DNA from: Loxodes magnus
Taxonomy: Eukaryota; Ciliophora; Karyorelictea; Loxodida; Loxodidae
Reading direction: 5' to 3'
DNA: 64,000 bases
Assembly: GCA_946699065.1 (NCBI GenBank)
Contig: CAMPDV010001989.1
Location: 1-64,000, forward strand
Below the pieces are notes generated by a model, which saw only the letters and a program-made list of their open reading frames with translations, did not search any database and was not told the origin of the DNA. Below, one piece after another: positions 2,132 to 64,000 of the stretch. The position numbers were made by a program, and so were the translations under genes. Position 1 is the first letter of the stretch. Each line of letters begins with the position of its first letter.

Positions 2132-2666
2132 CTTTTATCAAAAAAAGATAAAATCTCTTCATAAAACTTCTTTAAAAGCTTGACTTTCTGCAAATATATA
2201 GCTAATGCAGCAGAGTAAGAGCTAATGAATCTAATAAAGTTAAATTATTTCCCTTGATATACTTATAATTTAAACTTTCAATACCTTTCGTATATTTTAA
2301 AAGCATCCTTAAATCTAAAATATGAGATGCTAATGAGTTTTGTTTTAATAAAGAGAATCTGGTTTTTTTAGTTAATTGTGCATTGAAATTTAAATTAAAG
2401 GTAATTAGTAGTTTGATAGTTGAAGATTTTAAAATAAATAGTTTATATAAATAACTATGCAGGAGGATAATATCACTGTTTAATAAATTTAAGAGCTCTT
2501 CGCATAACATGGAGCTGGAAAAGCTTTAAACTCGCCTATTAAAATACATGAATATTAGGATTTAATTCCAAAAGGAGTTAAGTTATAAAAATTAGGCGAA
2601 GGTGGATAAGGGTGTGTTTATTTGATTGAATTAAGAGGTATTAAATATGCAATTAAGATAATGAAG
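2132..2666. other. 535-bp block identical in both direct-repeat copies
   Basis: Bases 2132-2666 match copy 2 without a single difference, while flanking DNA differs every few tens of bases. The block covers about 325 bases upstream of the kinase ATG and the first 70 codons. Its reverse strand holds a leucine-rich frame (2202-2510) that lacks TAA, TAG and TGA for 102 codons, very unlikely by chance at this composition. In the forward direction the same triplets read as a Gln-rich N-terminal extension in frame with the kinase. I cannot decide which strand is coding. Confidence 0.6.
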
Positions 2667-4465
2667 TAAACAAATGATCAACAAAGTCTAATAAAAGATT
2701 TCTATAACGAATGTAAATCTTTCTTATCTGTTAACGATGAATTTGTTTTAAGAATAGTAGGCTATGCTATTGATACATCTAGAGAAGATAAATATCGTTT
2801 CTGTTATTACACGAATTATTAGTAAAAAAGAAGCTTAAGTGACTTAATAAAAAACAAAAGTTTGTTCTAAGATCAATAAATAGATTTTTAAAAAAGATTT
2901 GTCGCTAAACTAAAATTGCTTTGCTAGATTACTTAGGGATTAAATGCCATTCATTAGGCTAATTTAATACATAGAGATATAAAATCCTTAAATATTTTGC
3001 TAAATGAAAGTGATTCTCCAAAAATAGCAGATTTAGGATTAGCTAGAGAATAAAGTGAATCCAAAACAAATGATTCAAAAGGAACATATAAATATATGCT
3101 CCTGAAACTTTTGAAAGCAAAATATATTAAAAAAGTGATATATGAGAATTAGCTTGTGTAGCAGTTGAAATCTTCAATGAAAATTTTATCTTTCCTGATT
3201 TATAAAATGACATTAAAGTGATTATGAATCATATTTATATTCAAAGATAGATTCCTTTATTTTCTGGTGAGATTATAAATGAGCCAGAACTCTAAAAACT
3301 TCTAACATAATCATTTAGTTTTGCTCCTGCTGACAGACCAAATATATTTGAATTCTAAAAACGACTTGAAAATATAAAAAAAAGTTACGAATAAAAATTA
3401 AGTTAAATTTAGCCTCTAAATATTAATCCTCTGTAAAATTAGAATTTAAATATTGGTGTTAATCCTAAAGAACTAAAGAATGAAGAATAAAAAATAATTA
3501 ATCCAATTATTAAATAACTAGATAAATAAGAAGAAGAGTAAAAAGAAAAATTTTAGGAGTTAAACGTATCTCTTGTTTGCTTTCTGAAATCTTGTCATGC
3601 TGCTATAATAAAAAAAGGAGTAGAATTTTAAGAGATAAAATTGGAAAATAGTTAGATTAGAATGGATGAAGGAAGCTCCGTTTATTATACAAAAGATTAT
3701 ATTTACATTTCTGGAGGAAAAGCAAATGGAGCTTGTACCAAAAGCTTTTAAATGGTTGATAGGGTAACTTTTAAAGTCTATAAAGAGTGTGAAATGATTC
3801 ATCCTAGAACTGATCACGGAATGACAGAAAGAAATTTACCAGACAATAAATATATCTATATTTTATCAGGTAGTTCAAACAGTTAAGTTTTAGCATTCTG
3901 CGAGTACTTTGATGTAAATGAGGGCGTTTGTAAAGAGTTTGAAAAAATAGTATTCAAAGTTAAAAATTTTGGATGTATATTTGAAAAAGACAAATTAATC
4001 GTAGTTGGTGGAATAAATTAGTTTCAATAGAGAATTATTTAAGGATAATGATATGACTTCAATATTAAAAGTTGAAGAATCATTTCAAAAGGAATCCCTT
4101 ATGGATCAACTGTAAGAATAGTAAAAGATGATAATGAGGAAATTTATATATTCGGAGATTACCTAGAAGGTGTTTACAAAATGACTTGAGAAACTGATTA
4201 ACCTAAATACTCCAAACTAACAGAAAATAATTATCCTGGTTAACTTAGTAATCAAAATCCTATCATAGAGGATTAAATGATTTATATATACGATGGAAAG
4301 AAAGTACATTGCTATGACTTAATTGAAAATAAATGATAAGTCAAATACTAAGAAAAAATAATTTATACGTAAGAATAGATTCAGTTCGTATTGAATCAAA
4401 TGAAATAAGGAAATAAGTTTGATTAAATAACCATTCCAAATGGAATAAGTGAAGAGCAAAGCTGA
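2457..4465 (+). pseudogene. Protein kinase-Kelch fusion gene, copy 1, frameshifted
   Basis: Same gene as 55,731-57,740, but one G is missing at about 3,098, inside the codons for the kinase APE motif (Tyr-Met-Ala-Pro-Glu in copy 2). This shifts the frame for the rest of the kinase and the Kelch part. The total length is 2,009 bases against 2,010, so this is the only net length change. The remaining sequence is still well preserved (HRD, DLG and Kelch repeats readable in the shifted frame), so the break is recent or is an assembly error. The ATG at 2457 matches the start chosen for copy 2; the final TGA is at 4463-4465. If the shift is real, the product would lose the kinase C-lobe and all Kelch repeats. 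Confidence 0.8.
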
Positions 4466-10162: not shown

Positions 10163-10221
10163 TTATAATATATCATTTAGCTTCTATAAATATATTCAAA
10201 TTAAAGAAAGTGACAAAAAAA

Positions 10222-10302: not shown

Positions 10303-10360
10303 TAATATAAATATACTTTTAATTAGCTTAAATATGAGACTACAAGATAATTGATTTATA

Positions 10361-25137: not shown

Positions 25138-26320
25138 ATAGTTTAAAATTTTTACAATAACTACTGTATAAATTCGAGAAAACGCTTTAAAATTATAATA
25201 AATGGGATAGAGGTAGAAATTCTAAGCAAAATCCAGCAAGATTAAAGTAATTTTCTTCATGAAATTTATCAGTAGCGTTGCTCGATAGAATTCCTTAAAT
25301 TATTGCGAGCTTTTAAAAATTTTGGCAGTTGTTTCAAATTTCTAAGTCAGTGAGTTAGTGTAAGAGATAAATAAAAATTTTTAGGATATAAACTAGTTGA
25401 AAAGCGAGGAAAATATGTAAGTTTCTTCTAAGTGCTCGTTCACAGTTCCAGTTCGAATTTCATATATTTTTGGTTGAATAAAACATAAATGAATGGTATC
25501 AAAATACAACCTTACTATCTGGGTAATATTCTCGAGGAAATTGTAAAATAATGAAGAAAGATCAAGAATAAAGATAAGCAAGGAGTTGATAAAAGAAATA
25601 ACTAAAAAGATAGTATAAGAGCTAACCTTAAAGGAACAACCCAGCAAAAGTAATAGTAATAATTTTTAGATTAGAGAAAGCAGCAAGCCATAAGTGTAAA
25701 ATCATCATTTTTTCTGCTAGTAAGTAAATTTAAAAAAAATCAATCAAAAAAGTTGAAAAATGAAGATAAACTCTATAAAAGTATAGAAGATTGGCCACTA
25801 CTTATAATATGACTAATATAGATTCTCTCTAAATAAATTATCAAAAATGATATGTAAAAAATTAGAAAAATACGAGGAGACAATTGAAACTTATGGAAAG
25901 ATTGGAATATATTAAGATATTTAATTGGGTAAAATAGATATTGCTCTTAGTAGCAATATCAAAACTTAGTCTTTCCAATAATAAAACAATGACTATTTTG
26001 TAATATTCTGAAAGTTTCAATTGTCTTATAAAATATTTTACTATAACTCATAGAGCAATAGATCAGAATAACTTATTGCTATAAAATAATATAGTACCCT
26101 AGTAACTTAGAAATAATATTAAGCAAGAAAGTAAAAATCCGTTATCTAGAAGCTATTGCTTAACATTAAAAAATATATTAAGTTAGATTTTTTAAATTTC
26201 AAGTTGAATGAAAAAAGAGATGAAGAATATCAATTCTTCAATAAGAATTGCTTTTATTTATAGAAGAATTTGCCTAAAGATTTGAAGTTAAATGTAATTT
26301 AATTTTTAATTTTATACCTA
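25138..26320 (+). repeat. Dispersed ~1-kb repeat, copy C
   Basis: Third and most diverged copy of the family at 12,960-13,952 and 18,522-19,700. It keeps the left terminal tract, the KCSFTVPVR block, the FSLNKLSKMICKKLEKY block and the right end. A one-base deletion after the last block (near 25,895) shifts the frame relative to copies A and B. No inverted partner was found nearby. Confidence 0.75.
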
Positions 26321-27860
26321 TAATTAAATATTTAAATTTAGATATTTAAAATGAAATTAATTTGATTAAATGAATTTGTTTATAATTTTATAAAAGCTAG
26401 TGTTACATAATAATTATTAATTATCTTATCTCTTTAGTTCCTATTTGTAGTTATTCTGTCTAAATAGTTTTTATTTCTTAATTATTATAAAATATTTTAA
26501 TGAATTTTAAATATTTTATAGAAGCTGATAAGAGCTTGGTTCTAAAGTATTATAAATATGAAATTAATATTGATACTTGTGAAATATGAAAGCTTATAAT
26601 TAATTATTAAATATTTTTACAAGTCTTTAAATCAGTTATTTCATTATGTCTAATACGTATACTACAAATTTTATTAACCCAAACATTCAAATATAGTTAG
26701 CTGCAAAAAATGTTAAAGAAAAATAGCTATAAATAAACTAATTTTAAATTATCATAAATTAATATTTCCCTTCTATTCAATTAGTAAGTCTTTATATTAA
26801 CTACTTTATTTTCAAACTAATTATTTTCAAGTGTTTTATACATTTTATTACAATATGCTTTCTCAAATTTGCCTTATCTTATAATTATGATATACCATTA
26901 ATTTTCAATATTAGCAGCTTATATCTATTTATAGCCATTATTTCTTTTATAAACATAATAGAAATTCATTTTCTAAAATCTAGTTTTGCTTCATTTATTT
27001 CTAGATTAATTATCATTGAAAAAGAGAAATTTATTATTTAATTTTACAACCCTTTTCTTTGTGAGAAAATAAGTTTATCTTAATAAATTTAGTTATAGAT
27101 TTATTTAAAATATGAAAGATTAAATTTAATAGCTAATTCAAATCTTTATTAGCTATTATTTTTATAATCAATCTTTACATTCACATTTTCTTCTATCAGT
27201 TTGCTTTTCTTAGTCAAATTTTAAATTTAATATGATTAACAAATAAAACTTAATATAATAGTTTGAAATTATTAGCTAGATATAAACTTAGTGCTTGAAT
27301 ACATTTGAATAATAAAACTTTTTATTCTAATTTTAGATATATTGCTGCTATATTTTAAGTTTTTCATTAATTGCTAATATTATAATTAATGAAATTTATT
27401 TCTTAATTTCTTAATTTTAATTCTTAAATTTTTTAATTAAATTATATTAGAAATTTGTTTCTTTTTCTTAATTTTATTTCTATGTTAAAATTAATTAAAA
27501 AATATTTAATATATTTAGTATTAATTATTTAATTTTAAATATTTTATAAATTAAAAGAGTATAAACATTAATAATAGTTTATTTTCAAAATTATCTTCTT
27601 TCATATGTTTTAAAAAAGGAAAGCAAAAAGTAAAATTATTTGAAGACAATCATAAAAGAATCTTGATGTAGAGTAATAGAAATAATTTTGGTAATTATTA
27701 AGTTATTCTTACGTTTATTTGGTTACATACATATAGAATCATTATATATAATTATTTTCTAAAACACATAAATAAGAACTCTAATAAAATTTCTTAGTTT
27801 TATTAAAACATTAATAAATTATATCCTTTAAATAAATCTAAATTATTAAACATTAATGTA
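26321..27860. other. AT-rich, nothing recognised
   Basis: Low-complexity AT-rich sequence (for example 27,370-27,560). No gene or repeat was identified. Confidence 0.6.
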
Positions 27861-27901
27861 ATTATCAAGTTTTTAAGCTAATTAAAAGTATATTTATATT
27901 A

Positions 27902-27982
27902 GACACTATGGCCGAGTGGTTAAGGCGACAGACTTGAAATCTGTTGGGTTCTCCCGCGCAGGTTCAAATCCTGCTGGTGTCG
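27902..27982 (+). tRNA. tRNA-Ser (anticodon TGA)
   Basis: Identical in length and fold to the other tRNA-Ser genes, but the anticodon loop is CTTGAAA, giving TGA, which reads UCA (and UCG by wobble). It differs from the AGA copies in a couple of loop bases only. A T-run follows at 27,983. Confidence 0.92.
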
Positions 27983-28040
27983 TTTTTTAGTAGCATTTTT
28001 GATTAAAATAAATTTATGGAAGTGAAATGTTATAGTATAA

Positions 28041-28115
28041 GTGCCCTTGTAGCTTAATGGATAAGGCGCTTCCCTCCTAAAGAAGAGATTGCGATTCAAG
28101 TCCCGTTAATGGCGC
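28041..28115 (+). tRNA. tRNA-Arg (CCT), degenerate
   Basis: Anticodon CCT in the loop CTCCTAA, but the anticodon stem has a mismatch (CTTCC against AGAAG). The T-stem has the GCGATTC lesion seen at 7492 and 60,759, and the acceptor has one mismatch. Probably a pseudogene. Confidence 0.65.
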
Positions 28116-28135
28116 TTTTAATAAAAGTATCTTAT

Positions 28136-28831
28136 TAAGAATTGGGGGAAATATATCATTCTTAATCACTAGAATTAAAACTTTTCTTAATTATACTAAT
28201 TGATAATTATCTAAAGATAAAAATGATGTGATAAAATCATAAAAAATGAAAAATAAGTATAAGATACACTATTTTTTAAGATAATAAACTATTTTCAGTT
28301 TATAAGAATTTGAATTTTCCTTTTGATACAAATTAAGAATTGAAAAATAATAAATTGTTGAGTAGTTAAATGTAAGGTTATTCAGCGAATGTATTAAAAC
28401 TTTCTGGTTATTAAATCATTTTTTAATATCATTTTTTTATTATCTATCTTAGTTAAATAAAAGCTAATTTAATTTTTAAGCTAAGTATAATTTTTTCCTT
28501 AAGCTTCTTGAATTCTATAAAATTAGGTATAAATTTGCTCTAAAAGTTAAGAAATAACAATTTATTAATTTAAAATTTTATCAAGAGTGTTAATCAAGTT
28601 TAATCTGATATTTCATTGAGTATAATTTGAATATTTACAGTGATCAAGTTATTTTCACTTTTATTATCTCAAAAGATAAAATTAAATTTGTATACTTATT
28701 TATTTATTTTTTGTAGAGATTTTTTAATTAAAACTTGAAATAGATGATTTGAATATGATTTAATGTATATGAATTAATTACTTAGTATTTATAAGAATAA
28801 ATATAGAAAATATTAAAAAATAATATCAAAA
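28136..28831. other. AT-rich spacer
   Basis: Nothing recognised between the tRNA-Arg relic and tRNA-His. Confidence 0.6.
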
Positions 28832-31275: not shown

Positions 31276-34200
31276 ATGCCTATTTGGATATTCTTAATCC
31301 TAAGTGCAACTCAAACAAGTTCATTGCAATTTTTAATTGTTAGTTCTCCCCATACATTACCTAACTTATCTGATTTCATTTAAATGTAGGTGTCTCAAAG
31401 TTTGTTTGGAAACTATTCTTTCAATCCTATTCATATATACCTGGAAAACTCTAATTTTTTAACCTATACCATTGAAAGATAAATAAATTATAATAAAATA
31501 TAATTCATTCTGGACTTAACATTCAACATCTTCTATTCCTCTAAATTAAGCCTTTTAAAGACTAATATCCCTTAGTTTGTAGCCTATAGAGATAATAATA
31601 ATTTTAAAAGCTAGAGAGTGTATTGAATTATGCCTAGCTATAAGCAAGAAGGAAAAGCGCTGTAAGGATTATTTGCAAGCCTAAACTTTACTAGGATATC
31701 TTATATTAGCTAAGAAGAGAATACATTTTATAAGCCACCTGAATTTATTGATCAAAGCAAAATAAAAATAAGCAACTCTTTAAATATTCCTTTGCATTCA
31801 AACTATGGTCTGAATTAATCAATATGCAATAATGATTATATGAAAGACAGAATACTGAAAGAAATTATTTAAGTATATAGAATTTATGGTTCTTCAGCAG
31901 TCCTAATTTAGTTGGAAGTTTGCTGGTAAGCATATATTTATACGGTCGCTGCTGATTATGAAAAAACAAAAGCCAGACAAGCCTTTATAGCAGGCCTTGA
32001 AGCTTCATATATCATAAATCCATAAATAACTTAAATTATATAATAAAGTTATAAGCCTCGCATTAGTATTTTAGATAATGGAATTATAGCTTTAACTCCA
32101 AAATTTTATATCCCTAGTAATTACTTCGAACTGTCAATGTACTATGTACAGCGTGTTTTAACTTTTATAGAAAAAGTAGTTTAACTTTAAACGAAAGAAA
32201 ATGATTAATCTTTTATAGAAGCATTTAATAAGCTTAAAGGGGAAATATTCGATAGTAACAATTTTATGCGGACAGAGTTTTCAGTTTTCAATCTTCAAAA
32301 TAGGAGACTAATTGAAGTTCTAGAAATAAAAGATGACTAAGTGATCAAAATATAAGATATTATTTACCCTGGACCAAGCACAACACCACCTCCTAATTAA
32401 TTTCCAATAGAAATGTCTTACTCAACTAACGATTAAGAACCAGATGGCTCATAATCTAGTTTCATTTTAATATCTCCTCCATAACATATTCCTTGTATTG
32501 TTGATTACGTCAACTTAGAATTAAGATAGTTAAGTCAATATTATTTTAAAGCAAACCCAATTTCATACGGGGGAATGAAGTTTAGTTTAAACTATACTTT
32601 GTAAGTTTTACTGGAAAACTATTATGAAATAGGAATAGCTCATTAAGGTAGCATACTAATTTAAAGTTGATATTATACTTATTTTGTTTTAAAATAGATG
32701 AATATAAATATTCCATATATTATAGCGAGTAGAGAAGATGAACTATCAGATATTCATTAATATGAAAATGTTATATATAACTATATTTCATGGGAATTTT
32801 TTCAAGACATGTATATTTAATTTTTAATCAGAAACAAATGAGATAAATTTGGTATAATTTTTGAGAAATACGAACCTTCTTGTAAAAAAATTCATGATAA
32901 GATAAAATAATGACTGATTAGTAACGACAAGGCTATTTTAAACTCCAATGAAACTACACTCTTAGAATTAGATCAAAGAAAAAATTAGTAGCTTTATGAT
33001 GATATAGCTCGTCAGATAATTTAGAAGGAAATTAGAATTATATTTTCCTTACCTGCTTTAAACTTTATTTATAATACGAAACGAGAAATTATGAAACTTG
33101 GCTGACAAAAAGGAGATACTAACTTAGTAATTATGTACACTGCTAACACCTTTGAATATGGAAATGTTGATGAGGAATTGATTTATTCAAAAAAGTTACT
33201 TCATGGAGCGATGACTATTTCCCCTTAAGAATATGTAGGAGAGAATGGATAATTACTAATATAAGTTCAAAAAGATTGTATACATTTTTTACCTCCTTCA
33301 CCTTGCTATTATATTGAGTAATCGTTGATAATTGCTAGAGGACTTAAAATTTGTCTAGAGCAAGGTTAAAGCTTTTTAAATTCAAAGAATTTGATATATA
33401 ATATAAGAAATCCATAATTCACGGGATGTAGTGGATCAGTAAAATTCAAAAAGTAATCAAATTTTAGAGATAATCTAAACTTTTTCTTCATCAATAATGT
33501 TTATGACTGACAGTGAAATTTACGTTTGGTTCCTTATCTTGAATATTGTTAAACATGTGCAATTGTGTGAAATAAGTTAAACGAACCGACTTGAAATGAC
33601 AACACCACAGAAACTCCTTAAGATTCTTTCGAATTATACGACAGTAATTGTGACTTTTCAGTTCGAAGGGTGAAAAAATTCAATTTAGGTTATAATATAA
33701 GTATTTCAGAGTTAGTATTTATATCTTTAGTTACTCTTTCTGCAACAATTTGGGGCTTTAAAGTTTGAAGATCTCATAAGCAAGAAGTACTGAAGAATAA
33801 AGTATTGATGAGTAGCGAAGACGAAATATTTATAATATATTTGCTAACTCAATTTATATAATACGTTATGTTAGGACCAGATCTAAGTAATTTATTTTTT
33901 CAAGCTACTTTTTCGAAAATTTTATCACTTGACTTTTTAGTTATAAAGATGAGCAATTATTTCTTTTGAACTAGTGTTCTCTTTAGCTCAACCTTGGCCT
34001 TTTCTATTGTTTTTCTATATTTGGCTTTTTTATTCTAATTCGAGGTAAAATATAAAAGCAATTGTATGCTAAGAAATTTGGGAAAGTTCTCTTATCTTTT
34101 TAGTCCTATTTTGACAGAAATAACTTTTATGCCAGTTATTTTTATACTAACAGAGATATACAAATGCAGCTATGGTAGAGATAGCAATTTAAATGAAGAA

Positions 34201-35250
34201 ATAGAAATCTCTGAAAGTTTTTTAGATATGAACTGCTCTAAATAATGCTTTACATAAATGCACTTTATAGCCATAGTCTTATCAACCTTAGCTTTATTAT
34301 TCTACATTCCTTTAGTAGTTTTAGTAAGACCTCACTGATAAGAATTATAAGGAGATACTATTCATATAAAATAGCAACCCTGATACATTGTAATTAAGAG
34401 CACTATTTAGATTATAATAGTAATTTTGAGCCAGGCTTTAAAAGAATTTCATCCTTTCCTTCATGGTATTATTTACTCTCTAATATTTCTAGTTTTTGCT
34501 ATTCTAGTGCTTATAAAGAAGGCTTTAACTTACTTAAAATTTAACTGAATATAATTTATTCTTCTTCTACTTACTTCCTTCATAACTGCAATAGTAGCTT
34601 TATCATTCCAAACCTCTAATTCAGGGAAAATAGTTTTATAGATAATACTTATATCAGGTATTGGATTAATCTTCATAATAGGTATAATAGTTATGGGAAA
34701 ATACCCTTCATACCTCAAATAAATAAAGCCAGATTTAGTAAATTTATTTAGGTTTGGATTTAGACTAAGAGTAGATGTAGGAATACTAAATAAGCATATA
34801 GATACATAAAATAAAAGAATATAAATATATAGGCAAATATTCCTTTAGAACTCTAGTAATTCAGCTTTAATGAGAACAAACTCTTCTTAGGATTAAAAGT
34901 GATTAGCCTCATTACAAGACAAATAAACTCTTATGAGCATTAAGAACTAAGTCACTACTTTTGCTTTAGAAGAAAGCTAAGAAAACAGCTTTACAATAGA
35001 TTACTCTTAGCAAAAAATGAATGAAAATTCTAAAAACTAAAGCATAAATCATTGAGTTACTAAATTTAAATTAGATAGTAAATAATGTAAGTTATTCTTA
35101 TAGTAAGCAGAAGTTAGGCAGGAAAATAGCATATCTTAGGAATATGAAATAAAGGACTTTACTTAACACTATAGCTTTTCATTTTTAACTATTAAATTTT
35201 AAATTTAAGATTTAAAGAAAAAATAGGCTATATCTATTCTAATTAAATGA
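31276..35250 (+). CDS. Receptor-like protein: ANF/PBP1 ligand-binding modules plus multipass membrane domain
   Basis: A reading frame of up to 1,325 codons with TAA/TAG as Gln and more than a dozen TGA as Trp. It begins with a signal-like hydrophobic segment (MPIWIFLILS). Residues ~200-370 and ~395-750 resemble type-1 periplasmic-binding-protein/ANF receptor modules. The second shows the typical order SWEFFQDMYIQFLIRNKWDK, IIFSLP...LGW, and a closing GCSGSVKFK...INNV. From codon ~800 to ~1,150 there are at least eight hydrophobic segments (for example FIIYLLTQFIQYVML), followed by a Gln/Ser-rich tail. The layout is that of a class-C-GPCR-like or other ciliate chemoreceptor; the ligand is unknown. 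The end is uncertain: in-frame TGAs at about 34,906 and 35,052 could be Trp or stop, and I chose the TGA at 35,248. No introns were needed. Confidence 0.82.
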
Positions 35251-35639: not shown

Positions 35640-36640
35640 GAACCAAAAAAATTATTAAAACTGCAAGTTTTGCTTTAAAATATCTAATAATATCAACCTA
35701 ATCAAATTAATAGCTTATTTTTAGGATTGCTTACAATCACAAAGATAGACACTACTGGACTAGTTAGCATATGATTAGGTTAAAAAATACCAAATTAATA
35801 GAATAAAACTCTTGATATTTCATATCAAGCTGAATAAATAAATAAAACATTGTTTGTTATTTTACAAGATTTAATTTCTCTTAAATTACAAAAGTAACTC
35901 AGGACTATTACATTAAGAAGAGTATTCTTCATATAGGATATGCATGAGGGCATATTATTTAATCTTTAAAATGATACAATGATTAAAGAGTATTATTGCA
36001 ACTGAAGTTATCATAGGATGATAACTCTTGTAAATTATATGGTTTTACTTCTATAATTACAACGGATGAAGATATTAATTTTTCTCATAATTTCTACATT
36101 TTTAGTCTAAATGTATTAAACAATTTGTTTCAAAACATCTCCAGGGCCAAGAAATGTGAACAAATCTTGCTAATAATTAAGAAATAAAAATTAGAAAATT
36201 TTATAGATTTAAAATTTTATTTTCAGGTAATCCTAATCAAGTAGTTTCAATACTCCAATTCATTAAGGAATATGATATATCCTAGATAATTTAGGTGTTT
36301 GAAGACTAAACTAAAATAAAATTTTGAAAGCATTTAAATTATTTTATTTTATTTCCTTATATTTTGGAACTAAGAACATTGGCATCTTTTAATTAGCCAA
36401 TCCATTTAATTAACAAGAAGATCATATAAAACTGGAAAAGCTACAAAAGCAATCTCCATAAAATTAATAAAGCTATATAACTAAGAAATTAACTATTTAT
36501 GAAACTAGCAAAAGCATATATACAATAATTGATAAAGTTGTATTTATTTAATTTTAAATAAGATTTAAATAAAATTATTATGGAAAAGGAGTTTGATTGC
36601 TTTTAATAGTTTAGATGAGGATAGCTATAATGCACACATA
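35640..36640 (+). pseudogene. Decayed paralogue of the GT13 glycosyltransferase gene
   Basis: Aligns along its length with 43,330-44,435 on the same strand. Readable islands include NDTMIKEYYCNQSYH (NDTMIKQYDCSRSYH in the better copy) and TDEDINFSHNFY (SDDDINFSHNIY). Frame changes are frequent. At the position of the 16-nt intron of the other copy, the GT is kept but the AG is lost. The C-terminal block KEFDCFQQF is still visible near 36,590. It lies 390 bases downstream of the receptor stop and is not expected to make a product. Confidence 0.75.
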
Positions 36641-42991: not shown

Positions 42992-44459
42992 ATGCAAGAT
43001 GTTCACAAACGGAAATTTATATTTCAGCTTAGAGTAAAATTATTACTACAGGCTTATGTAGCATCAAGACCACTAAGAGTTGAAAGTTTACTTCAAGCAA
43101 AGCAAATATATTATGAAGGAAGTCAAGAGAAAGTTTCTTAATTTTTTTTGTAATATAGATAACTTTTTTTAACTGATTCATTGGAAGAATTTTCTCAAGT
43201 TTTGAATATGTTGAAGGAAAATAATTTTTTATAATTAAATTTCTATACAACTGATTTTGAAAGCAAAATCAGAAATTGAAATAAACGCTACTCATTTTGG
43301 ATATTATGAAGCTTATGGATTTAAAAAGAAAAAGGAATGATTTGAAATTGCAAGATTCGCTTGGAGATTAGCAAATAATATTTTTCTAGTTAAACCTAAA
43401 GAAGATGGATTTTTTAACGATGCTTACAATTGGAAAGATAGACCATTCTGGGCAGGTGCGCATCTTTTTGACAAGGAATATTAACGAGCAATAAATTATT
43501 TTAACAAATATTAAAGGAAAAAACTTCCGGAAATTTTAATTCCAATATGATTCAGGCTTATAAAAGACCTGATTATTTGAATAAAACTCCTGATACTTTA
43601 TGTCAAGCTGAAAAAATAAACGAGACTTTGATTGCTATTTCACAAGAAGGGAATTTCTCCTAAGTTACCAAAATAGTTCATAGTTATTACAGTAAGCTGA
43701 ATATACTTCATATAAGATACTCTTGAGAACCTATTCCTTAACCTTTTATAGAATATTAAAACGATACAATGATAAAACAGTATGATTGCAGTCGAAGTTA
43801 TCATTGAATGATAACTCTAGCAAAGTATATGAATTTCGCTGCTATAATCACATCAGATGATGACATCAACTTCTCTCATAATATTTATACTTTTAGTACT
43901 TATGTGAACAGAAACTTACTTCAAAATATCTTCTGATCTAAGAAATTGGAATGATGTTAGTTATGATTCGAAAAGAAAAAGGGATAGTATTGAAGACTTT
44001 TTCACCTTTTATTTTTCGAGATCTCAAGATTAAGCAGATTTAATATCCAATATATACTAATGGATTATATATATCCTAGCTTTTTTGGACATTTCATGGA
44101 CAGACGCATGAGAGAATTTCGCAAAAAACCTGAATAAATATACTTTAGATCCTTTTATTTACCGTGCTAAGCACACTAGATAATTTTCTAATGAATCAAT
44201 CCACTAAATAAACAAAAGCAATCTAAAAGAATAGGAAATAACTAAAAAGCTATCTCAATATAATAAATGAAGCTACATAATTAGACAATTAACCATTCTC
44301 GAAACTAGCACTAATATATATGCGATAAATTCTAAAGCTAGGTTATTAGGTTTGAAGTAAGTTAGAAATAAGTTTATTTTAAGGAAAAAGTTTGACTACT
44401 TCTAATAATTTCGATGGAATAAGTGGTGGTACAGTGTAGAGGCTTCAAAACTTTCTTGA
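42992..44459 (+). CDS. GT13-like N-acetylglucosaminyltransferase, with 16-nt intron and two frame changes
   Basis: The central part matches the GT13 family (GnT-I/POMGNT1 type), which adds GlcNAc to mannose on glycoproteins in the secretory pathway. Visible landmarks in order are IQAYKRPDYL (first strand of the fold), ETLIAISQEGNF (…SQDG… motif), SYHWMITLAKYM, the metal-binding ITSDDDI, and NWNDVSYD (…AWNDNG… motif). A 16-nt intron at 43,896-43,911 (GTACTTATGTGAACAG) restores the frame between DDDI and NWND. Upstream, codons 1-90 (VASRPLRVESLLQAKQIYYE) and 90-180 (FWAGAHLFDKEYQRAINYF) lie in different frames, changing near 43,277 and again near 43,540. At each change a TGA is at or beside the shift. 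Decay, assembly indels or ribosomal frameshifting remain possible. The stop TGA is at 44,457. Confidence 0.72.
43896..43911 (+). other. 16-nt GT-AG intron in the GT13-like gene
   Basis: The sequence GTACTTATGTGAACAG has consensus ends. Removing it joins TFK-TYFKISSDLRNWND in one frame, matching the expected GT13 motif order. Introns of 15-16 nt are known from heterotrich ciliates. Confidence 0.75.
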
Positions 44460-53124: not shown

Positions 53125-53566
53125 ATGAATTTTAAATTGAATACTAAGGAAAATTAGTAAAAAATTAAAAACTTAAACTAGCAAAGTTTTTAAGTGTCTG
53201 AAGGCTAAACTTGGATGGTTATTTTGGGTTTTTAATTTGATAATAACTATTTTCTACCGATCTGAGATAATATAGCTTCAAATGTAAATGCACAAATTTC
53301 TATTTAAGCACTAAATCTACCTAAATTTTCTTCAGAGATACTAATGAAAAAATTACTTATCAAGCTGTATAAATAAATAAATTTGAGTGCTTCGAAAGAT
53401 AAACTAATAGCAAGAGAATTAAGCAGAAATTACTATATAAAGATAGGATTCGTTTAGTCGATATTAGTAGACTCTTATCCTTTTTTTCAATTTATAAACA
53501 CAAAATAATTCAATTACTTTATCTAAACGGAATAAATATATTCCTAACATTTTATTGAATTAAGAA
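53125..53566 (+). CDS. Weak candidate gene at the edge of direct-repeat copy 2
   Basis: ATG at 53,125 opens a frame of about 147 codons that reads as ordinary protein (SFQVSEGQTWMVILGFQFDN; SASKDKLIARELSRNYYIKI; GFVQSILVDSYPFFQFINTK). One TGA (53,263) is read as Trp. A 7-base insertion relative to copy 1 near 53,566 shifts the frame, and the quality downstream is poor. Window base 1 is codon 48 of the same frame in copy 1. Differences between the copies here change amino acids at several places, so constraint is weak. No family recognised. Confidence 0.3.
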
Positions 53567-55730
53567 AGAAGAAAGAAGAAACAGGAGTAAGAAACTGAAC
53601 GAAAGACCTATAAAGAAGGTGAAATATTACACTAGCTACTTCGTCAGAAGAGTATGGAAAGAAATATAAAAATTTTAATTCAAATTTTTAGTAAAAAGAA
53701 GCGCAACTGTCGCAAGAGTAAAATAGGTCTTAAATATCAAACTTAATTTCATCTATTTTTACGGAAGTTACTCTGTTTGGTTGACTTTAAATTATAAAAT
53801 TTCCTTATTTAGATAAAGCTAAACAGGTAAGAAAGATTATCACTAAATTTCAGAATTTAGATTCTCTTAAATTCTTTAGATTATGATAAAGAAGGAAAAT
53901 GTTTGTTTTTATTATTTTTATATGATAGATAAGAAAAATAAACAAGCTTACAACTAGAAATTTATTAATGTATTTTCCTTTATTCTCTTATAAAGACAGG
54001 TTCGAAAGAAAACTGTATTAAGATTTGATTTCAATAACTAGCAATGAAAAATAACTAAAGAGATAAAAATTAATTAAGTAAGTCATAAACTCAAAAACCA
54101 AAACATTTTATCTATCCTATTCGATCTTAAATCATTTTGTTTCTCCACTTTTCTCAAAGAAACTTATTGAAGAATTTAATACTTTACTACAATTTTTTCT
54201 TAAACTTTAAAATTTTTAACAAAGTTAATAAATTAAATAAAAATAATAAGCATACCTTTTCAACTTATCTGAGAGATTTCATTTTATAAGATGACTTTAT
54301 TTTCATGATGCTAGCATTTTTCTTAATCCTTAATTCAAGCAAATTTAAGAATAGTCAAATGACCTCCCTTATAATATGACTAAACAGTTTTTTATCTTAT
54401 TATATCAATTTTATAAGATCAAACTTATACGAAATTATATCTAATTGGGGTATTATTTCTTAGGAGAAACATATACAGATAGATAATAATAATCAACTTA
54501 GAATCTCTTTTAAAGAGATTTGCTAAAAAGTAGGTAAGTGTAAACTAAACTAATTTTTAGCTTAGTTTAGGTTATTAAATTAGTTTGAAAATAAATTGCA
54601 TTCAACATAGATATACACTTAATTATCCTTTATAAGCAGATCTATTGCTTTAGCTTGATATGTGAGAAAAACCTTTTCAATGATATTATTGTAAAATTAA
54701 AAAACTAAATAATTTGAGATTTCGCTCCGTTAAGTAGAAATATCCAGACTTAGTTTTTTAAGTTTATAGTTTGGTATTTAAGAATAGATGAACCCATAAA
54801 GTTTAAATTAATAAATTAATGAAGTATTTGCTTATTAGTTATGTTCATCAGTTAAACGTTTAAAGACATTTCAAATGGTATGAGGTATAAAATCAATATA
54901 GCTAGTCTCTTGTATACTGCAAAGCTTTTATTTTGTTTGATTTCTTCTTTAAAATTAAAATCTAAACACAGAAAAATTTATCGAGACTTTTTTAATTAGC
55001 AAATTCTTCCAAAATGAAAAAATTATATTCGAAATGCCATCTTAAACGAGACTTAAGAAAGCTATAAATATAATAATTATATAGAAAACATAAAAGTAGA
55101 ACTTCGCTATTAATCAAACCACTTAATATAAAAAAAATCATTGAGTAGCATTAATAAATTAAATTTTTTAGGTCTTTCACTGACTAGTAATAAAGGAGTG
55201 AAATTTCTTCAATATTGGTTGAATAAAAAAAATTAATATCTATTTAAAATGATTCCAAAAAACAAATTAAAGACTCTTATATAATTAAGCTTTATCTAGG
55301 ATATTATAAGACAATTTTAGATTATTACTAGTTGCTTGAAACTTTATAACTCAAACTTCTGGGGTAAATTGCAGTATATGATCTATATCTGTTTAAGCTT
55401 AAGTTATTTTATCAAAAAAAGATAAAATCTCTTCATAAAACTTCTTTAAAAGCTTGACTTTCTGCAAATATATAGCTAATGCAGCAGAGTAAGAGCTAAT
55501 GAATCTAATAAAGTTAAATTATTTCCCTTGATATACTTATAATTTAAACTTTCAATACCTTTCGTATATTTTAAAAGCATCCTTAAATCTAAAATATGAG
55601 ATGCTAATGAGTTTTGTTTTAATAAAGAGAATCTGGTTTTTTTAGTTAATTGTGCATTGAAATTTAAATTAAAGGTAATTAGTAGTTTGATAGTTGAAGA
55701 TTTTAAAATAAATAGTTTATATAAATAACT
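53567..55730. other. Upstream region of kinase copy 2
   Basis: Counterpart of 295-2,456. It contains the two hairpins corresponding to 1230-1297 and the identical block described at 2132-2666. No confident gene. Confidence 0.45.
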
Positions 55731-57740
55731 ATGCAGGAGGATAATATCACTGTTTAATAAATTTAAGAGCTCTTCGCATAACATGGAGCTGGAAAAGCTT
55801 TAAACTCGCCTATTAAAATACATGAATATTAGGATTTAATTCCAAAAGGAGTTAAGTTATAAAAATTAGGCGAAGGTGGATAAGGGTGTGTTTATTTGAT
55901 TGAATTAAGAGGTATTAAATATGCAATTAAGATAATGAAGTGAACAAATGATCAACAAAGTCTAATAAAAGATTTCTATAATGAATGCAAATCTTTCTTA
56001 TCTGTTAACGATGAATTTGTTTTAAGAATAGTAGGCTACGCTATGGATACATCTAGAAAAGATAAATATCGTTTCTGTTATTACACTAATTATTAGTAAA
56101 AAGGAAGCTTAAGAACCTTAATAAAAAACAAATGTTTACTCTCAGATCAATAGATAGATTTAAAAAAAAGATTTGTCGCTAAATTAAAATTGCTTTGCTA
56201 GATTACTTAGGGATTAAATGCCATTCATTAGGCCAATTTAATACATAGAGATATAAAATCCTTAAATATTTTGCTAAATGAAAGTGATTCTCCAAAAATA
56301 GCAGATTTAGGATTAGCTAGAGAATAAAGTGAATCCAAAACAAATTTTTTAAAAGGAACATATAAATATATGGCTCCTGAAACTTTTGAAGGCAAAATAT
56401 ATTAAAAAAGTGATATATGAGGATTAGCTTGTGTAGCAGTTGAAATCTTCAATGAAAATTTTATCTTTCCTGATTTATAAAATAAGATTAAAGTGATTAT
56501 GAATCATATTAATATTCAAAGATAGATTCCTTTATTTTCTGGTGAGATTATAAATGAGCCAGAACTCTAAAAACTTCTAACATAATCATTTAGTTTTGCT
56601 CCTGCTGACAGACCAAATATATTTGAATTCTAAAAACGACTTGAAAATATAAAAAAAAGTTACGAATAAAAATTAAGTTAAATTTAGCCTCTAAATATTA
56701 ATCCTCTGTAAAATTAGAATTTAAATATTGGTGTTAATCCTAAAGAACTAAAGAATGAAGAATAAAAAATAATTAATCCAATTATTAAATAACTAGATAA
56801 ATAAGAAGAAGAGTAAAAAGAAAAGTTTTAGGAGTTAAACGTATCTTCTATTTGTTTTCTAAAATCTTGTCATGCTGCTATAATAAAAAAAGGAGTAGAA
56901 TTTTAAGAGATAAAATTGGAAAATAGTTAGATTAGAATGGATGAAGGAAGCTCCGTTTATTATACAAAAGATTATATTTACATTTCTGGAGGAAAAGCAA
57001 ATGGAGCTTGTACCAAAAGCTTTTAAATGATTGATAGGGTAACTTTTAAAGTCTATAAAGAATGTGAAATGATTCATCCTAGAACTGATCACGGAATGAC
57101 AGAAAGAAATTTGCCAGACAATAAATATATCTATATTTTATCAGGTAGTTCAAACAGTTAAGTTTTAGCATCCTGCGAGTACTTTGATGTAAATGAGGGC
57201 GTTTGTAAAGAGTTTGAAAAAATAGTATTCAAAGTTAAAAGTTTTGGATGTATATTTGAAAAAGACAAATTAATCGTAGTTGGTGGAATAAATTAGTTTC
57301 AATAGAGAATTATTTAAGGATAATGATATGACTTCAATATTAAAAGTTGAAGAATCATTTCAAAAGGAATCCCTTATGGATCAACTGTAAGAATCGTAAA
57401 AGATGATAATGAGGAAATTTATATATTCGGAGATTACCTAGAAGGTGTTTACAAAATGACTTGAGAAACTGATTAACCTAAATACTCCAAACTAACGGAA
57501 AATAGTTATCCTGGTTAACTTAGTAATCAAAATCCTATCATAGAGGATTAAATGATTTATATATACGATGGAAAGAAAGTACATTGCTATGACTTAATTG
57601 AAAATAAATGATAAGTCAAATACTAAGAAAAAGTAATTTATACGTAAGAATAGATTCAGTTCGTATTGAATCAAATGAAATAAGGAAAATAGTTTGAGTA
57701 AATAACCATTCCAAATGGAATAAGTGAAGAGCAAAGCTGA
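55731..57740 (+). CDS. Protein kinase with C-terminal Kelch repeats (intact copy)
   Basis: 669 codons plus a terminal TGA, in one frame without introns. Kinase landmarks: Gly-rich loop GEGGQG (47-52), AIKIMK lysine (64-69), HRDIK (172-176), DLG in place of DFG (192-194), APE (215-217) and SDIW (227-230). The domain ends near residue 310 with the DRPN motif and is followed by a Gln/Asn/Glu-rich linker (~310-390). Residues ~410-640 are Kelch units: YIYISGGK, YIYILSGS, LIVVGGIN, YIFGDYLEG and IYIYDGKK, with Trp at 540 (YDFNIKSW) and 627 (YDLIENKW) encoded by TGA. A cytosolic Ser/Thr-type kinase with a beta-propeller binding module is likely; the substrate is unknown. Codon 71 is TGA here but TAA in copy 1. 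The start is the ATG giving QEDNITVQQ; an in-frame N-terminal extension is possible. Confidence 0.88.
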
Positions 57741-60560
57741 ATTGAAGAATTTAAATTCAATAACTTTAAAATATTTTAGATTTAAATAGGAAAATAAAAG
57801 AAAAAATTTATGATATAATTTATATAAAAGATGTTAAGCTTAATTTAAACGATGGTAAATATTATAACTATTAAATGTATATTAAAGCAATAAAAATAAA
57901 TCCCCTAATGTAAAGAACTCATATGAATGTTAAAGAGCCTAAGTTCTTCTATGTGAATAAATCTTTATTCTTTATATATAAAAAATTAAGATCTAGGCTA
58001 ATTGATTCTATAATAATACATATATAAATAGTTTTTTAATTAATTTAAATACAATGAAAATTAATTTTCATCGTACAAGCATTTCAAATATTTTATTTAC
58101 TTTCTTAAGTTTTTGATGAATATACCATCTTATAAATCTTTTACACTGTATAAATGTATAAAATCATTTTTTGGCTATGTTTTTATCTTACAAGATAAAT
58201 AACTTTATCATGCTACTTTTTAAAAAGGAACAAAATCATAGAATAAAGAGAAAGGTTTATCAATAAAATTAAAAATATCCTTTTTTATCATTCTTTATTT
58301 TTATTTTTCCTTAATATCTACAAAACTTTTAAGGAAATCCTTTGAGTGAAAAAATAATAATTTGATATAGAATGTTGAGAATATGATGCTCTAGCATAAG
58401 AAGATTTATATTAATTAATAATTTAAACCTTATTATAATTTTCCTTTAAGTTGACATTATTTAATTTTAATACTATTTATCTCTAATTTTAACTTTATAA
58501 TTGATTAAATTACTAAAGTGACTATTAATTCTACTATCTAAATTTTGATTTATGTATATAAAATATTTTTAAGTTTAATAAGGTTTATAATTTGCTTCAA
58601 TTTTACATTGTGTATTAAAAGCTCTATATTAAATAAATCACTTAAATGATTCTTTTTATTTATAAGCAGAAGTATTTTTCTTGCTTATTTTCTAAGGAAT
58701 AAATATCTAGTGATATTTTAATATTTTATTTATAGCGTCTTTTGCTTTTTTACTAAAAAGGTGTCTGATTATTCAATTAAAATTTGCTAATTCAGTATAT
58801 TTTCTTTTATCTTCTAAGCGCTTATTTCAGACTCTTTGGGTTCAGTAAGAAACTATTATACTGATTAACTACTCAAAATTTATAAATCTTCATTTTTATC
58901 CACTAATTTAAAAGTATCTAAAACCACCACAAGATTAGACTTTTAACATTTAATCTCAGGTTTCTCTCGAGAAAGGCCATATTTGCCCTAAAATCTTAGT
59001 CAGCACTAGATTACATTTATAAGTTTTTAATTTGAAAAGTATTTTAGATTAAAATACCTCAATTACTAGACATAAAATAATAAAATCTTAGTACTAATTA
59101 TAAAGAAAGAATCTCAATAAAAATAAGCTCTTAAATAAATTAGTTACATATGCTTAAAACAACCTTAAGCCTAGTTTTCTTAATTATTTTAAAAGATTCT
59201 GCATTATAACTCTCTATTTACTTAAAGAGCTAGTCAATATGATTTAATCTTAGCTTCTTTTAATATAATTTTTAGATTAGGTTAGATAAATATTTTATTA
59301 ATATGAGCAAAGTTTATGGAATTTTGTAATATATTTCTTTTAAAAAGAATAATTTAAAAGTTACATCATCTATTTTATTATAAAGCTATACAGTCACAAT
59401 ATTAGAATTAAATTAGCTTTTATTTACATACTTTATAGCATATTCTTAGTTTAGATCAGATAAAATCTGAAATTTATCAAATTTTGTTAAGATACTAATT
59501 TGAGATTTCAAGTAAAGGAATTTTAAGAACATAAGAGATAAAAATCAAAAATTGAAAGTTAAAAATTAATAATAATTTTATATTAAAGCAGAATAAGCAA
59601 CTTATGATATATTATAGAGAGATAAAAATATTTAAAGCAGTGTATAAATAAGCTAGTTTTAATTCTGTTATTGTTCTAGTAATAAATTTAATAATTATAG
59701 AAAATATTACTCAGGAAGAAGTATCAGAAAGCAAAAATGTTGTGTTCCTTTCGAAGATTATAAGCTGATTTAGAAATAGAATGAGAATAAACTGCTCGAT
59801 ATATAAAAATATAAAAATTTGTACATAAGTCAAGCTATTTCATACAGTATAGATATAGAACTTATAAGAAAATAATTCCTTCCTTAAAATATAAAGCTAT
59901 CCTAATATTATTTAATTAAATAATAAACAACTACCTTTTATTAAAAATACAACTATACTGTGTAAATGATTCTATTATTAATCTAAATTTTAAAGGATGA
60001 AAGAATAGATGAATATTTGAATTTAGAGGTTATTTATTTAACTTATAACTAATAATGAAAGTAAAGAAGTTAGGAAAACTTCTTAAATGTAAACAAACAT
60101 ATTGAAAAATATCTTTCGAAAATTAATTTAATAGTTCTATTTGAAATTTATTATAGCTTATTTTTAATTCTAATATTTTATATAAATAAACATAAGAAAA
60201 GCTTTGAAACTTTTATAAGATAATTAGTCCTTTTAAAAGTAATTTTGCTAGAATATATAAGCAATGCAAAATGATGTAAATTTAATTTTTGTAATTGAGA
60301 ATTTGTCTATTTTAGAAATCCTTTACACTGTATACTCTTAATATTTCCTTTAAGAAGCAAAAGGGGATTTATCTAATTTTATTAGATGCTAGCTTAATTT
60401 TCTTATCTTAATGATAAATATAATTTAATTTATTTCTTATTAAGAAATGTTTACTTTTATCAATTTTAATATATATAATATGTCTATCTAGCCATATTAT
60501 ATATACATTCCTAAATTTAATTCTTTCAACTATTAAATCAGATTATAAGAAATAAGTTTA
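57741..60560. other. AT-rich, counterpart of 4,466-7,290
   Basis: Nothing recognised. It includes the non-homologous patch at about 58,135-58,200. Confidence 0.6.
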
Positions 60561-60618
60561 TATAAATCAATTATCTTGTAGTCTCATATTTAAGCCAATT
60601 AAAAGTATATTTATATTA

Positions 60619-60699
60619 GACACTATGGCCGAGTGGTTAAGGCGACAGACTAGAAATCTGTTGGGTTCTCCCGCGCAGGTTCAAATCCTGCTGGTGTCG
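60619..60699 (+). tRNA. tRNA-Ser (anticodon AGA)
   Basis: Sequence and fold identical to the tRNA at 7352-7432, followed by a seven-T run. Confidence 0.93.
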
Positions 60700-60758
60700 T
60701 TTTTTTGTCACTTTCTTTAATTTAAATATATTTATAGAAGCGAAATGATATATTATAA

Positions 60759-60833
60759 GTGCCCTTGTAGCCTAATGGATAAGGCGCTTCCCTCCTAAGG
60801 AAAAGATTGCGATTCAAGTCCCGTCAAGGGTGT
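60759..60833 (+). tRNA. tRNA-Arg (CCT), degenerate
   Basis: The acceptor end is better preserved than at 7492 (AGGGTGT). The T-stem lesion GCGATTC is present and the anticodon stem has one mismatch (CTTCC against GGAAA). Probably inactive. Confidence 0.68.
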
Positions 60834-60857
60834 TTTTTAATTAAAATTTCTTTATTT

Positions 60858-63320
60858 AAAAAAAACTATTATTAACAATAATTTAAATTTATTTACTTAT
60901 CTAAAATATAAAATTAAAAATATAATTATTCAAGAAAAAAGGTTAAAGAATCATTAAAAAATTATAAGGATAAACACCAATAAATATTTAGATTACTATC
61001 TTCAAATAATTATAAAACAGAAGGAAAAAGAAATTAATTAATTAAAATAAAGCAATAAAATAAAATTTTAAGGAAATAATAAAGTAATAAAATATTTAAA
61101 ATATCTATTAATCAATTTAATTAAAAAACAATATTCAATTTAATATTAATAATGTAAATTTAAATTATAGCAAAAAAATTGTTTACATTATAAGTATAAA
61201 ATTTATAAATAAAAGATGATTAATAATTTATGTAAATCTTAGTAAATTAAAACAATTTAGCCACTAAATTTAATTATTGTTTCTTTAAAAGATTTTTTAT
61301 GCTTTTTCTCTAGAAAAAATCTCTTTTTCGACGTTTATGGTAATTAATTTAACCTTTTATTCTTATTTTATTTACCTTTCTAATTATGAATTTTATTTTT
61401 AAATAATATATTTAGAAAATAAATTTTATTCAAGTTAAATCAAATTTTATAAAATAATTTATTTAGGTTATATATAGTAATAAATCTATTATTCATAATT
61501 ATAATAGAATGATGATTGCTAAATTAACAGATGGAAGTTTAGATTATAATTAATAAGTTTTAATTTATTTTTGAGTTATTTTAAAATTATTTTTTACTAT
61601 ATAATCAAAAGTATTAGCGTAAATAATTTAAAGAAATGCTTCTATTTAGAATAACTATTCATAAAAATCTTTAAGTATTTTATTTTTTAAATAAACAAAT
61701 TTCAACATTTTTTCATTGGATAAAGAAGGATGTGATTTATTTGCTCAATTTACTTTTGTTAATACTTTATAAATATGTAAATAATTTTATTTCTTCTTAT
61801 ATTTAAAGATGAGATTAAATTTATTTATGCTGATTTTTTATGAATTTTAGAAATATAATTATAATTCAAATATGTTAATTTTTTATGGCAAGTATAATCT
61901 CCAAAAAAATTTCATTAATTGTTATAATTTTTTAATATTATAAATATTTTTTTAAAATTCTTTATTCTTTTCTTCTCGTAAAAGTTATTATATTATTCAA
62001 TGATGTTACTTCATCTATTTATTAAACGAGAATTTATTGTTCTATTCTGATTGGAAGCTCAATTCTTTGTTCATTTAAACTCCTAATTTATGGTCTTTAA
62101 GTACTAATGATTACTGGTGGTATGTGTGAGTATAGGCAGTTGATATTAGGATATCTGTAGTCAGAGAGCTCCATCGTTATTGACTACCTGTCGTCAGATC
62201 CCTACCAATGATAAGCCGGGTAATTTGATTTGACTTTGAATCAGGATTCTGCATTCATGCTAGTGACTTATATCTAGATGTAGACGAAACATTACTCCTG
62301 AAGCCGCCTAATTTAAATTATTATGTCGTTATTTAAAGATAAATCTTTAATTATTGTCTAATATATATAAACTTTTAACCAATTTACGCTCCTTTTATGA
62401 AATTTTCAATGTTTTGCCATTATTCCAGTTGAGTTAAATTTAAATTAATCTAAATAAATATTTTCATAATATAATCCTCTATTTTATTCTAATAACACTT
62501 TATTTCATATTATTTTATATCAAACTTCCTTAAAAATAAATTTAATTTTGCTTATTTTTTTAATCTAGTTTCCTTTAAAGCTGATTTTTAGATAAAAAAT
62601 AAAAATTGATATTGAGCTTTAAATTTTTAAACAAAGAAATAATTTACGACCCTGATAATTTTAAACTGATACATTTGAAAAATAAAATTTTAAACTGAAA
62701 AATATAAAAATAAATATATTAGATTTATTTAAATATTTAAGTTCTAATATTTACAAAAAGTAACTAAATAAAATACAATTTTAGAAATATTTTATAGAAA
62801 TAGTACCAAAACAAATATTTCTTATTTTCATTAAAATAAATATAAAAATATTAAAAATGTTTAGATATTTAAAATTAAGAATTGCATAAAGCAGATGAAA
62901 AATATAAAATTAAGCTGCAAAAGTAAGATATTATCTTTTATTTTAGAAAAATATTTTTAGTTATTTTTAAAGATAATATTTTGCGTTATAGTAAAGGAAA
63001 ATAATTAAATAAAATAAAAGATGAAAAAATTTTAAACTAAAAAACAGAAAAAAAATTTAAGATATGAAGTTAAAGTTTATAATTTATATAATTATATTTA
63101 AAATTTTCAATCTTTTGTTTTAATTTTTCATTAAATATTGCAAAAATTTATTCGTAAACTAAGAAAGTTAAATATTAAGATAAAAATAAAAAAGAAAATA
63201 TGAATATTTGTATATTATCTTTACTTATATAGACTCTAAATCCTTATTTTTAATTATAGTTAATTAATTATCATAAATAATTGTATTTTTATTTTCTTTT
63301 AGTTGATTAAATCTTAATAA
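60858..63320. other. Spacer of tRNA inverted repeat, copy 2
   Basis: AT-rich, with the GC-elevated island at 61,996-62,330. No gene assigned. Confidence 0.5.
61996..62330 (-). other. GC-elevated island, copy 2
   Basis: Counterpart of 8,747-9,080. It carries many substitutions, mostly transitions, and a one-base insertion near 62,157 that breaks the reverse-strand frame relative to copy 1. This fits decay of a former gene or element. Confidence 0.4.
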
Positions 63321-63337
63321 GAAATTTTAATTAAAAA

Positions 63338-63413
63338 ACACCCTTGACGGGACTTGAACCCGCAATCTCTTCCTTAGGAGGGAAGCGCCTTATCCATTAG
63401 GCTACAAGGGCAC
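63338..63413 (-). tRNA. tRNA-Arg (anticodon CCT)
   Basis: Same sequence as the intact reverse-strand gene at 10,087-10,162, with the T-stem GCGGG/CCCGT paired and an intact anticodon arm. Confidence 0.85.
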
Positions 63414-63472
63414 TTATAATATATCATTTCGCTTCTATAAATATATTTAAATTAAAGAAAGTGACAAAAAAA

Positions 63473-63553
63473 CGACACCAGCAGGATTTGAACCTGCGCG
63501 GGAGAACCCAACAGATTTCTAGTCTGTCGCCTTAACCACTCGGCCATAGTGTC
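63473..63553 (-). tRNA. tRNA-Ser (anticodon AGA)
   Basis: Same sequence as the gene at 10,222-10,302. Fully paired arms and a downstream T-run on its own strand. Confidence 0.93.
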
Positions 63554-64000
63554 TAATATAAATATACTTTTAATTGGCTTAAATATGAGACTACAAGATA
63601 ATTGATTTATATATCTTTAATTTATTTAAAGGAGATTATTTATTAAAGTCTTTAATGCAACTTAAATTTTATAAATATATCTTAATTGTTTGTATTTTAA
63701 CTAAAGTTATTTTAATATCTAAATATTCTATTATATGAAACTATTATGTAATCGAATAATTGTAATGATAACTTTAAATTTACTAGAAATATATTTTTAT
63801 TGTAAAAGCAAGATTCTTTTTGGTAAAATTCTATACATTTTACTTTTCTCTCTCTTCTTTTTTAAAGTCAGATGAAGCAAGATAAAATATACGCTATTTT
63901 TGAGAATTCAAAGCGTTTTCTATTAAATTATATTAAATTATATTATATTAAAATATATCTTTTTAATCAAGTAGCAAAATTAAGAAAACATAGAGTAAAT

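Follow-up and report, generated by a model that had tools for sequence, protein, structure and literature searches.

UAA, UAG and UGA as sense codons, with UGA and possibly UAA also as stops, in a 64,000-nucleotide stretch of ciliate DNA, most likely from Loxodes magnus

The window analysed here, the whole stretch of 64,000 nucleotides, is very probably macronuclear DNA of a karyorelict ciliate, with Loxodes magnus the most likely source. Judged from its sequence, the genes in it would be translated with UAA and UAG as glutamine; UGA would mean tryptophan at internal positions and would be the principal terminator where genes end. We propose that UGA may be decoded by a tRNA-Trp(CCA) in which the top of the anticodon stem is unpaired, and that the choice between stop and tryptophan would be set by the closeness of the codon to the mRNA 3' end, as has been published for karyorelicts. 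Because the karyorelict reading is supported, the code itself is already known; it has been published, and the present result is an independent rediscovery from raw sequence. Two observations go beyond the known code: TAA stands at a few aligned gene ends (Arp1 and a Rab), and tRNA-Trp(CCA) genes with a broken top pair lie in tandem arrays.

According to the available text of PMC11441545, karyorelicts use translation table 27, in which UGA is the sole stop and also encodes tryptophan and UAR encodes glutamine, and this is stated for Loxodes magnus. The same text gives the Loxodes magnus assemblies as 706 Mbp (MAC) and 848 Mbp (MIC); the assembly searched here has 705,730,643 bases in 7843 contigs, with the window on contig 1989. 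In the portions of the literature available, the combination of UAR for glutamine and UGA for tryptophan has been published for karyorelicts, Condylostoma and Parduczia, and Plagiopyla frontata and an Amoebophrya have been suggested to share it.

The evidence for codon meaning comes mainly from a gene on the forward strand at 55731..57740 that encodes a kinase followed by Kelch repeats. The reading frame runs from ATG 55731 without a break, with six internal TGA codons and no TGG (6/669 codons for TGA). With TAA and TAG read as Gln and TGA as Trp, Pfam places a Pkinase domain (E = 1.4e-40) ahead of the Kelch repeats (Kelch_1, 21.1 bits against a cut-off of 20.1; the larger Kelch model reaches 31.6 bits, under its cut-off of 50). 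The first-pass annotation had assigned tryptophan to TGA in the kinase SDIW motif and at the conserved tryptophan of the Kelch repeats, and in-frame TGA codons are present at 56418..56420 (SDIW), 57324..57326, 57348..57350 (YDFNIKSW) and 57609..57611 (YDLIENKW). Tryptophan stands opposite TGA 57348 in all four displayed alignments with Kelch chains from the PDB, and opposite TGA 57609 in the sole displayed alignment that reaches that far (-0.8 bits, weak by itself). The residues opposite TGA 57324 in the PDB Kelch alignments are not tryptophan.

The window gene was aligned with 40 fetched copies, giving a set of 41 that was drawn from 60 listed kinase-family matches and left out partial matches and further close copies; all three stop codons were coded as X, so that no reading was favoured. 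All 41 copies match in a single frame to at least residue 627 of 669. The columns at 56418 (TGA in 20 copies, TGG in 21), 57348 (TGA 26, TGG 15) and 57609 (TGA 17, TGG 24) contain only TGA or TGG in 41/41 copies. In the window ORF, with its TGA rate of 6/669, the probability that three named columns would all be TGA by chance is about 7e-7. Relatives with other residues at these three positions, which the annotation had named as grounds for refutation, were not seen among the 41 copies. A further TGA, at 57462..57464, falls in a column with TGA or TGG in 35/41 copies and is likewise read as Trp. The SDIW assignment is thereby borne out, and the Kelch assignment holds for 57348 and 57609. TGA 57324, at the first base of the annotated range, lies in a variable column of the Kelch part in which TGA or TGG occurs in 13/41 copies, and this is not a Trp column. 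The column at 55941, with TGA in one of the 41 copies, is not a Trp column either. Against the reading as Trp, two inner columns (56769 and 57723) have TGA in at least five rows and TGG in none, the second of these lying near the gene end with TAA as its commonest codon.

Among 23 representatives that are less than 80% identical to each other, tryptophan is enriched 108-fold in TGA columns, while glutamine is enriched 7.9-fold opposite TAA and 8.4-fold opposite TAG; the corresponding values opposite TAA and TAG are 1.6-1.7 for lysine and 1.7-1.9 for glutamate. These figures uphold the earlier proposal that all three stop codons are also sense codons. Exchange of TGA and TGG at invariant Trp columns is at odds with table 6, in which UGA is solely a stop, and the preference for glutamine over glutamate is at odds with table 31, in which UAR is glutamate. 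What was found agrees with table 27 for UAA and UAG as glutamine, for UGA as tryptophan inside the coding sequence and for UGA at gene ends.

The internal TGA codons might instead mark a decaying gene copy in a code with UAR as glutamine and UGA strictly as stop, since TGG becomes TGA by one transition. A second copy of the gene (copy A), at 2457..4465 on the forward strand within a 10.7 kb direct repeat, has a 1-nt gap at 3097 and is for this reason probably broken; copies A and B differ by 31 nonsynonymous codons (four of them past the stop) against 15 synonymous, which indicates weak constraint. The alignment of 41 copies has already refuted this explanation, to which we attach next to no probability: the copies keep one frame, 17-26 of them carry TGA at each invariant Trp column, and TGA outnumbers TGG by 21:3 in two window ORFs. 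Copy A keeps seven of the eight TGAs compared (the six internal ones, 57738 and a downstream TGA at 57924), with TAA in place of the one at 55941. At one further locus (L027), two copies of the kinase-Kelch type apparently share a continuous frame, with a second kinase start following on from the tail of the upstream copy.

The reading of UGA as tryptophan inside genes is also favoured by profile scores. When TGA was given each of the 20 residues in turn, Trp came top with the Pkinase profile (140.2 bits; Tyr 137.8, Phe 136.5) and with the Kelch model (32.2 bits; Met next at 28.8). With the ANF_receptor profile on the ORF at 31630-35166, for which 18 residues were scored (Pro and Thr were left out), Trp was best at 17.1 bits and Tyr next at 13.0, against a cut-off of 25.4. 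The claim of the first-pass annotation that TGA encodes Trp is thus sustained by the profiles as well as by the exchange with TGG. For TAA, Pfam alone gives 189.5 bits for Gln versus 188.4 for Lys (a hand sum over three domains), and Kelch_1 scores 27.9 bits with TAA as Glu versus 22.6 with TAA as Gln. Lysine, near-equal by Pfam, was set aside as disfavoured by the paralog alignment, which favours Gln.

The ratio of 21:3 for TGA to TGG in the two window ORFs (14:2 in their best-supported part) is indistinguishable from that of other pairs ending in A or G, namely AAA/AAG, GAA/GAG and CAA/CAG (231/294; Fisher p 0.43). Family-wide, TGA is rarer than a plain synonym of TGG would be: the 23 representatives have TGA:TGG at 90:77 (54% A) versus 905:241 for AAA/AAG and 772:158 for GAA/GAG. 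UGA makes up 1.14% of codons in the two window ORFs (21/1847) and 0.63% in the representatives (90/14350), unlike Condylostoma magnum, for which the available text of PMC4967479 gives 0.042%; Parduczia is there put at 0.120%. The near-identical main actins (L049-L060) contain no internal TGA, though they use TAG and TAA, and divergent actins have up to four; highly expressed genes may avoid TGA.

The second of the two ORFs, at 31630..35166 on the forward strand, is receptor-like, with an ANF-receptor-like ectodomain below the Pfam cut-off, 15 TGA and 3 TGG. Its coding nature is argued from a codon-model score, for which the kinase ORF with the three stop codons omitted was the training set and which peaks at 56.8 at position 33715 and is lower beyond, and from its hydrophobic segments, of which there are eight in frame versus three and one in the other frames. 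In 200 codon shuffles the mean number of segments was 3.3 and the maximum eight, so that at least one shuffle reached the observed value. By codon scores, the candidate ends are TAA 35164 or TGA 35248. No intron is needed, and no strong relative of this ORF was found.

The first-pass annotation had also read TGA 43805 as the tryptophan of an SYHW motif in a GT13 glycosyltransferase. The TGA is in frame, within a GlcNAc-transferase-like fragment (43502..43924, forward strand) on both sides of which the frame changes; neither the family nor the tryptophan was sustained. The Pfam MGAT2 match (20.7 bits, cut-off 27) stops short of the motif, a PDB search gave nothing better than E 0.65, and a diverged copy at 35769-36617 has AGG in place of the TGA, and the GT13 label was rejected on these grounds. 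Joining frames across the changes lowered the MGAT2 score (18.7 versus 20.7 bits). On visual inspection, the 20 bases at 43455-43474 may be a GT..AG intron, removal of which would bring both frames of the fragment together.

That TGA also serves as a terminator, as the annotation had supposed, is supported by three other families and probably by the kinase-Kelch gene itself. The window gene most likely terminates at TGA 57738-57740 (forward strand), because this codon is kept in 9/9 close copies, the coding score has its maximum at 57747 and the GC content there drops from 32% to 12%. A higher GC content in coding sequence than in the 3' flank is also part of the published picture, with 33.5% reported for coding sequence and 18.6% for 3'-UTRs (PMC11441545, available text). 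The actin relatives, cathepsins and Rabs were chosen by hand from the match lists, several of the cathepsins being near-identical. All 12 near-identical actin copies end in KCF-TGA. At 16 of 20 further actin-family loci, TGA lies 0-2 codons beyond the match; L077 and L074 have it 8 and 10 codons beyond, respectively, and at the remaining two, L078 and L080, TAA stands one codon beyond the match. L080 is Arp1, with an alignment that reaches the last residue (370/370) of PDB chain 5adx_A and TAA as the next codon. TGA follows the profile end by 1-2 codons in 19 of the 20 cathepsins examined (of 154 matches), and the other (L093) has TAA at the profile end and TGA eight codons later.

Rab tails were examined for 60 of 150 matches. 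A regular expression counted 25 ends with TGA, 4 with TAG and 4 with TAA and left 27 unmatched; by eye there are 28 prenyl-type ends with TGA and 4 with TAA (L110, L113, L150 and L157), so that TGA is found in 28/32 recognisable ends. The rest comprise one spurious match (L107) and the 27 tails without the motif, among which L123, L151 and L153 have CSKC or CFCL followed by TGA. None of the Rab ends is a clear TAG: the four matched by the expression are the spurious one, one CC-TAG-YV-TGA and two CCK-TAG-TGA. The tail of L113 ends CNC-TAA and that of its relative L127 ends CNC-TGA.

These ends bear on whether UGA is the sole stop. In a code of the Condylostoma type, TAA (perhaps also TAG) would terminate translation near mRNA ends as well, and we regard this as rather probable. 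Seah et al. reportedly noted in 2022 that UAA may serve as the stop in a small minority of transcripts. The aligned ends of Arp1 (L080), L078, the cathepsin L093 and the Rab L113 are occupied by TAA; among the six genes with no TGA at the aligned end (these four, L074 and L077), TAA stands exactly there in four, against a per-codon background of 6.1% (P = 2e-4, for six genes that were picked after looking). A search for a motif followed by any stop also favours TAA by chance, L093 has its TGA only eight codons further on, single genes may reflect extensions or sequencing error, and most recognisable ends are TGA, with no clear TAG end.

In 12 of the 23 kinase-Kelch representatives, TGA follows the last Trp by 27-44 codons; four have it at codons 7, 18, 21 and 51, and seven have no TGA before codon 59, with TAA or TAG at the end. 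In the close copies L039 and L048, a 1-nt gap lies just past the end and the common frame is lost there. These seven tails and the lost frame speak for a code of the Condylostoma type. Against it, removal of a candidate GT..AG intron of 15-27 nt in L023, L034, L037 or L042 would place a TGA at codon 20-40, and our confidence in a TAA stop is slightly lower because of these candidates; no such intron is among the candidates listed (at most eight each) for L020, L030 and L039. TAA is relatively depleted near ends, with TAA:TAG at 28:36 in the last 20 codons versus 47:26 in the preceding 25 (p 0.017), and at 705:269 in the kinase core. Relative avoidance of UAA before the stop is shared with what is published for the karyorelict code, depletion of UGA and UAA, and not UAG, being reported there (PMC11441545, available text). 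The lack of TGA just before stops was dropped as evidence, being present by construction in the 11 kinase tails; the 28 Rabs have no TGA in the more upstream codons either (0/700).

The set of genes thus resembles table 27 in having UAA and UAG as glutamine and UGA as tryptophan inside genes and as stop at the end, and differs from it in the apparent use of TAA as the end of a minority of genes. It resembles table 28 of Condylostoma magnum in that all three stops are also sense (Gln, Gln, Trp) and termination would be positional, and differs from that code in having no clear TAG terminator. The annotation had left the choice between a karyorelict and a Condylostoma code; the karyorelict alternative is supported rather than Condylostoma, the assembly size pointing to Loxodes magnus, for which table 27 is published.

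Inside genes, UGA as tryptophan calls for a decoder. The simplest would be a cognate tRNA-Trp(UCA), a mitochondrial form of which is known in sequenced ciliates (PMC4967479, available text), and we consider a cytosolic reader of this kind very unlikely here. In the window, tRNA genes were found for Ser, Arg and His but not for Trp. Two arm patterns, rather than full tRNA scans, were searched genome-wide. The pattern TCGACTYCARATCGA gave 128 matches against 10 for its control, and the 100 listed are all CCA; the UCA-arm pattern GACTTCARATC gave 254 matches against 482 in the reversed control (100 listed) and is not enriched. Among the matches listed for the two patterns there is no sign of a UCA tRNA. 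Another pattern, TCCARAN{15,30}GTTCRANYC, was discarded (236 matches versus 264 in the control, with tRNA-Trp in 1/6 fetched stretches). The available text of PMC13092985 reports no cytosolic tRNA-Trp(UCA) in C. magnum, Blastocrithidia and an Amoebophrya. It further reports that UGA is read in relatives by a tRNA-Trp(CCA) with a shortened, 4-bp anticodon stem, that stems of this kind raise readthrough at UGA and that such a tRNA is present in Loxodes. Because of this, the absence of a UCA-reading tRNA, which the annotation had put forward as refuting tryptophan, would not do so.

The features of the 4-bp-stem tRNA-Trp(CCA), a CCA anticodon and an unpaired anticodon-stem top, are found here. 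By place, the 100 listed matches to TCGACTYCARATCGA fall into a tandem array on C67 (49; C67:482319-491372, units of about 188 bases), a second on C148 (47; C148:157314-168461, units of about 241 bases), one more site on C148 and three on C110. ARAGORN called tRNA-Trp(CCA) in nine of ten fetched stretches, the tenth (L176) being the cut unit with which the C67 array ends. The C110 copies (L161, L173, L174) have 5-bp anticodon stems. In the C67 and C148 units (L167-L171, L175 and L176 from the arrays, and L172, a single copy beside the C148 array), the top pair is broken in 7/8, as A.C in three from C67 and as U.C in four from C148, and is intact in the cut unit. The tRNAs with a broken top pair are the putative readers of UGA. 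They share the CCA anticodon and the unpaired stem top with the tRNA-Trp that PMC13092985 (available text) describes in Blastocrithidia nonstop and C. magnum, and differ in that they form two large tandem arrays, each with its own mismatch, in a genome that also has 5-bp copies on C110. The portions of the literature available, which concern UGA as tryptophan, contain no mention of such arrays.

A wider proposal would join these observations: that UAA and UGA are both sense and stop, with paralogs ending in TGA or TAA at one aligned place, and that UGA is read by a dedicated, amplified tRNA-Trp(CCA) in two arrays (at least 49 units on C67 and at least 47 on C148) whose differently broken top pairs reflect repeated selection for the unpaired state. 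We would give this even chances. One genome offers a test bed with TGA/TGG swaps at invariant tryptophans, apparent switching between TGA and TAA at gene ends and amplified candidate decoder tRNAs, and both positional termination and the 4-bp-stem hypothesis can be tested directly in one organism.

No relatives were confirmed in viral and genome contig collections. The direct repeat of the window that holds copy A (1-10749 and 53266-64000) is 10.7 kb long and 96.7% identical, with 303 substitutions and 29 gaps and its copies 53.3 kb apart. An old inverted duplication (10058-17050 and 22478-28143, 67-78% identity) has a related stretch at 18461-19770. Pairs of tRNA-Ser and tRNA-Arg(CCU) genes lie at 7352-7565, 10088-10302, 27902-28114, 60619-60832 and 63339-63553, as direct and inverted copies, and some of the Arg copies look decayed.
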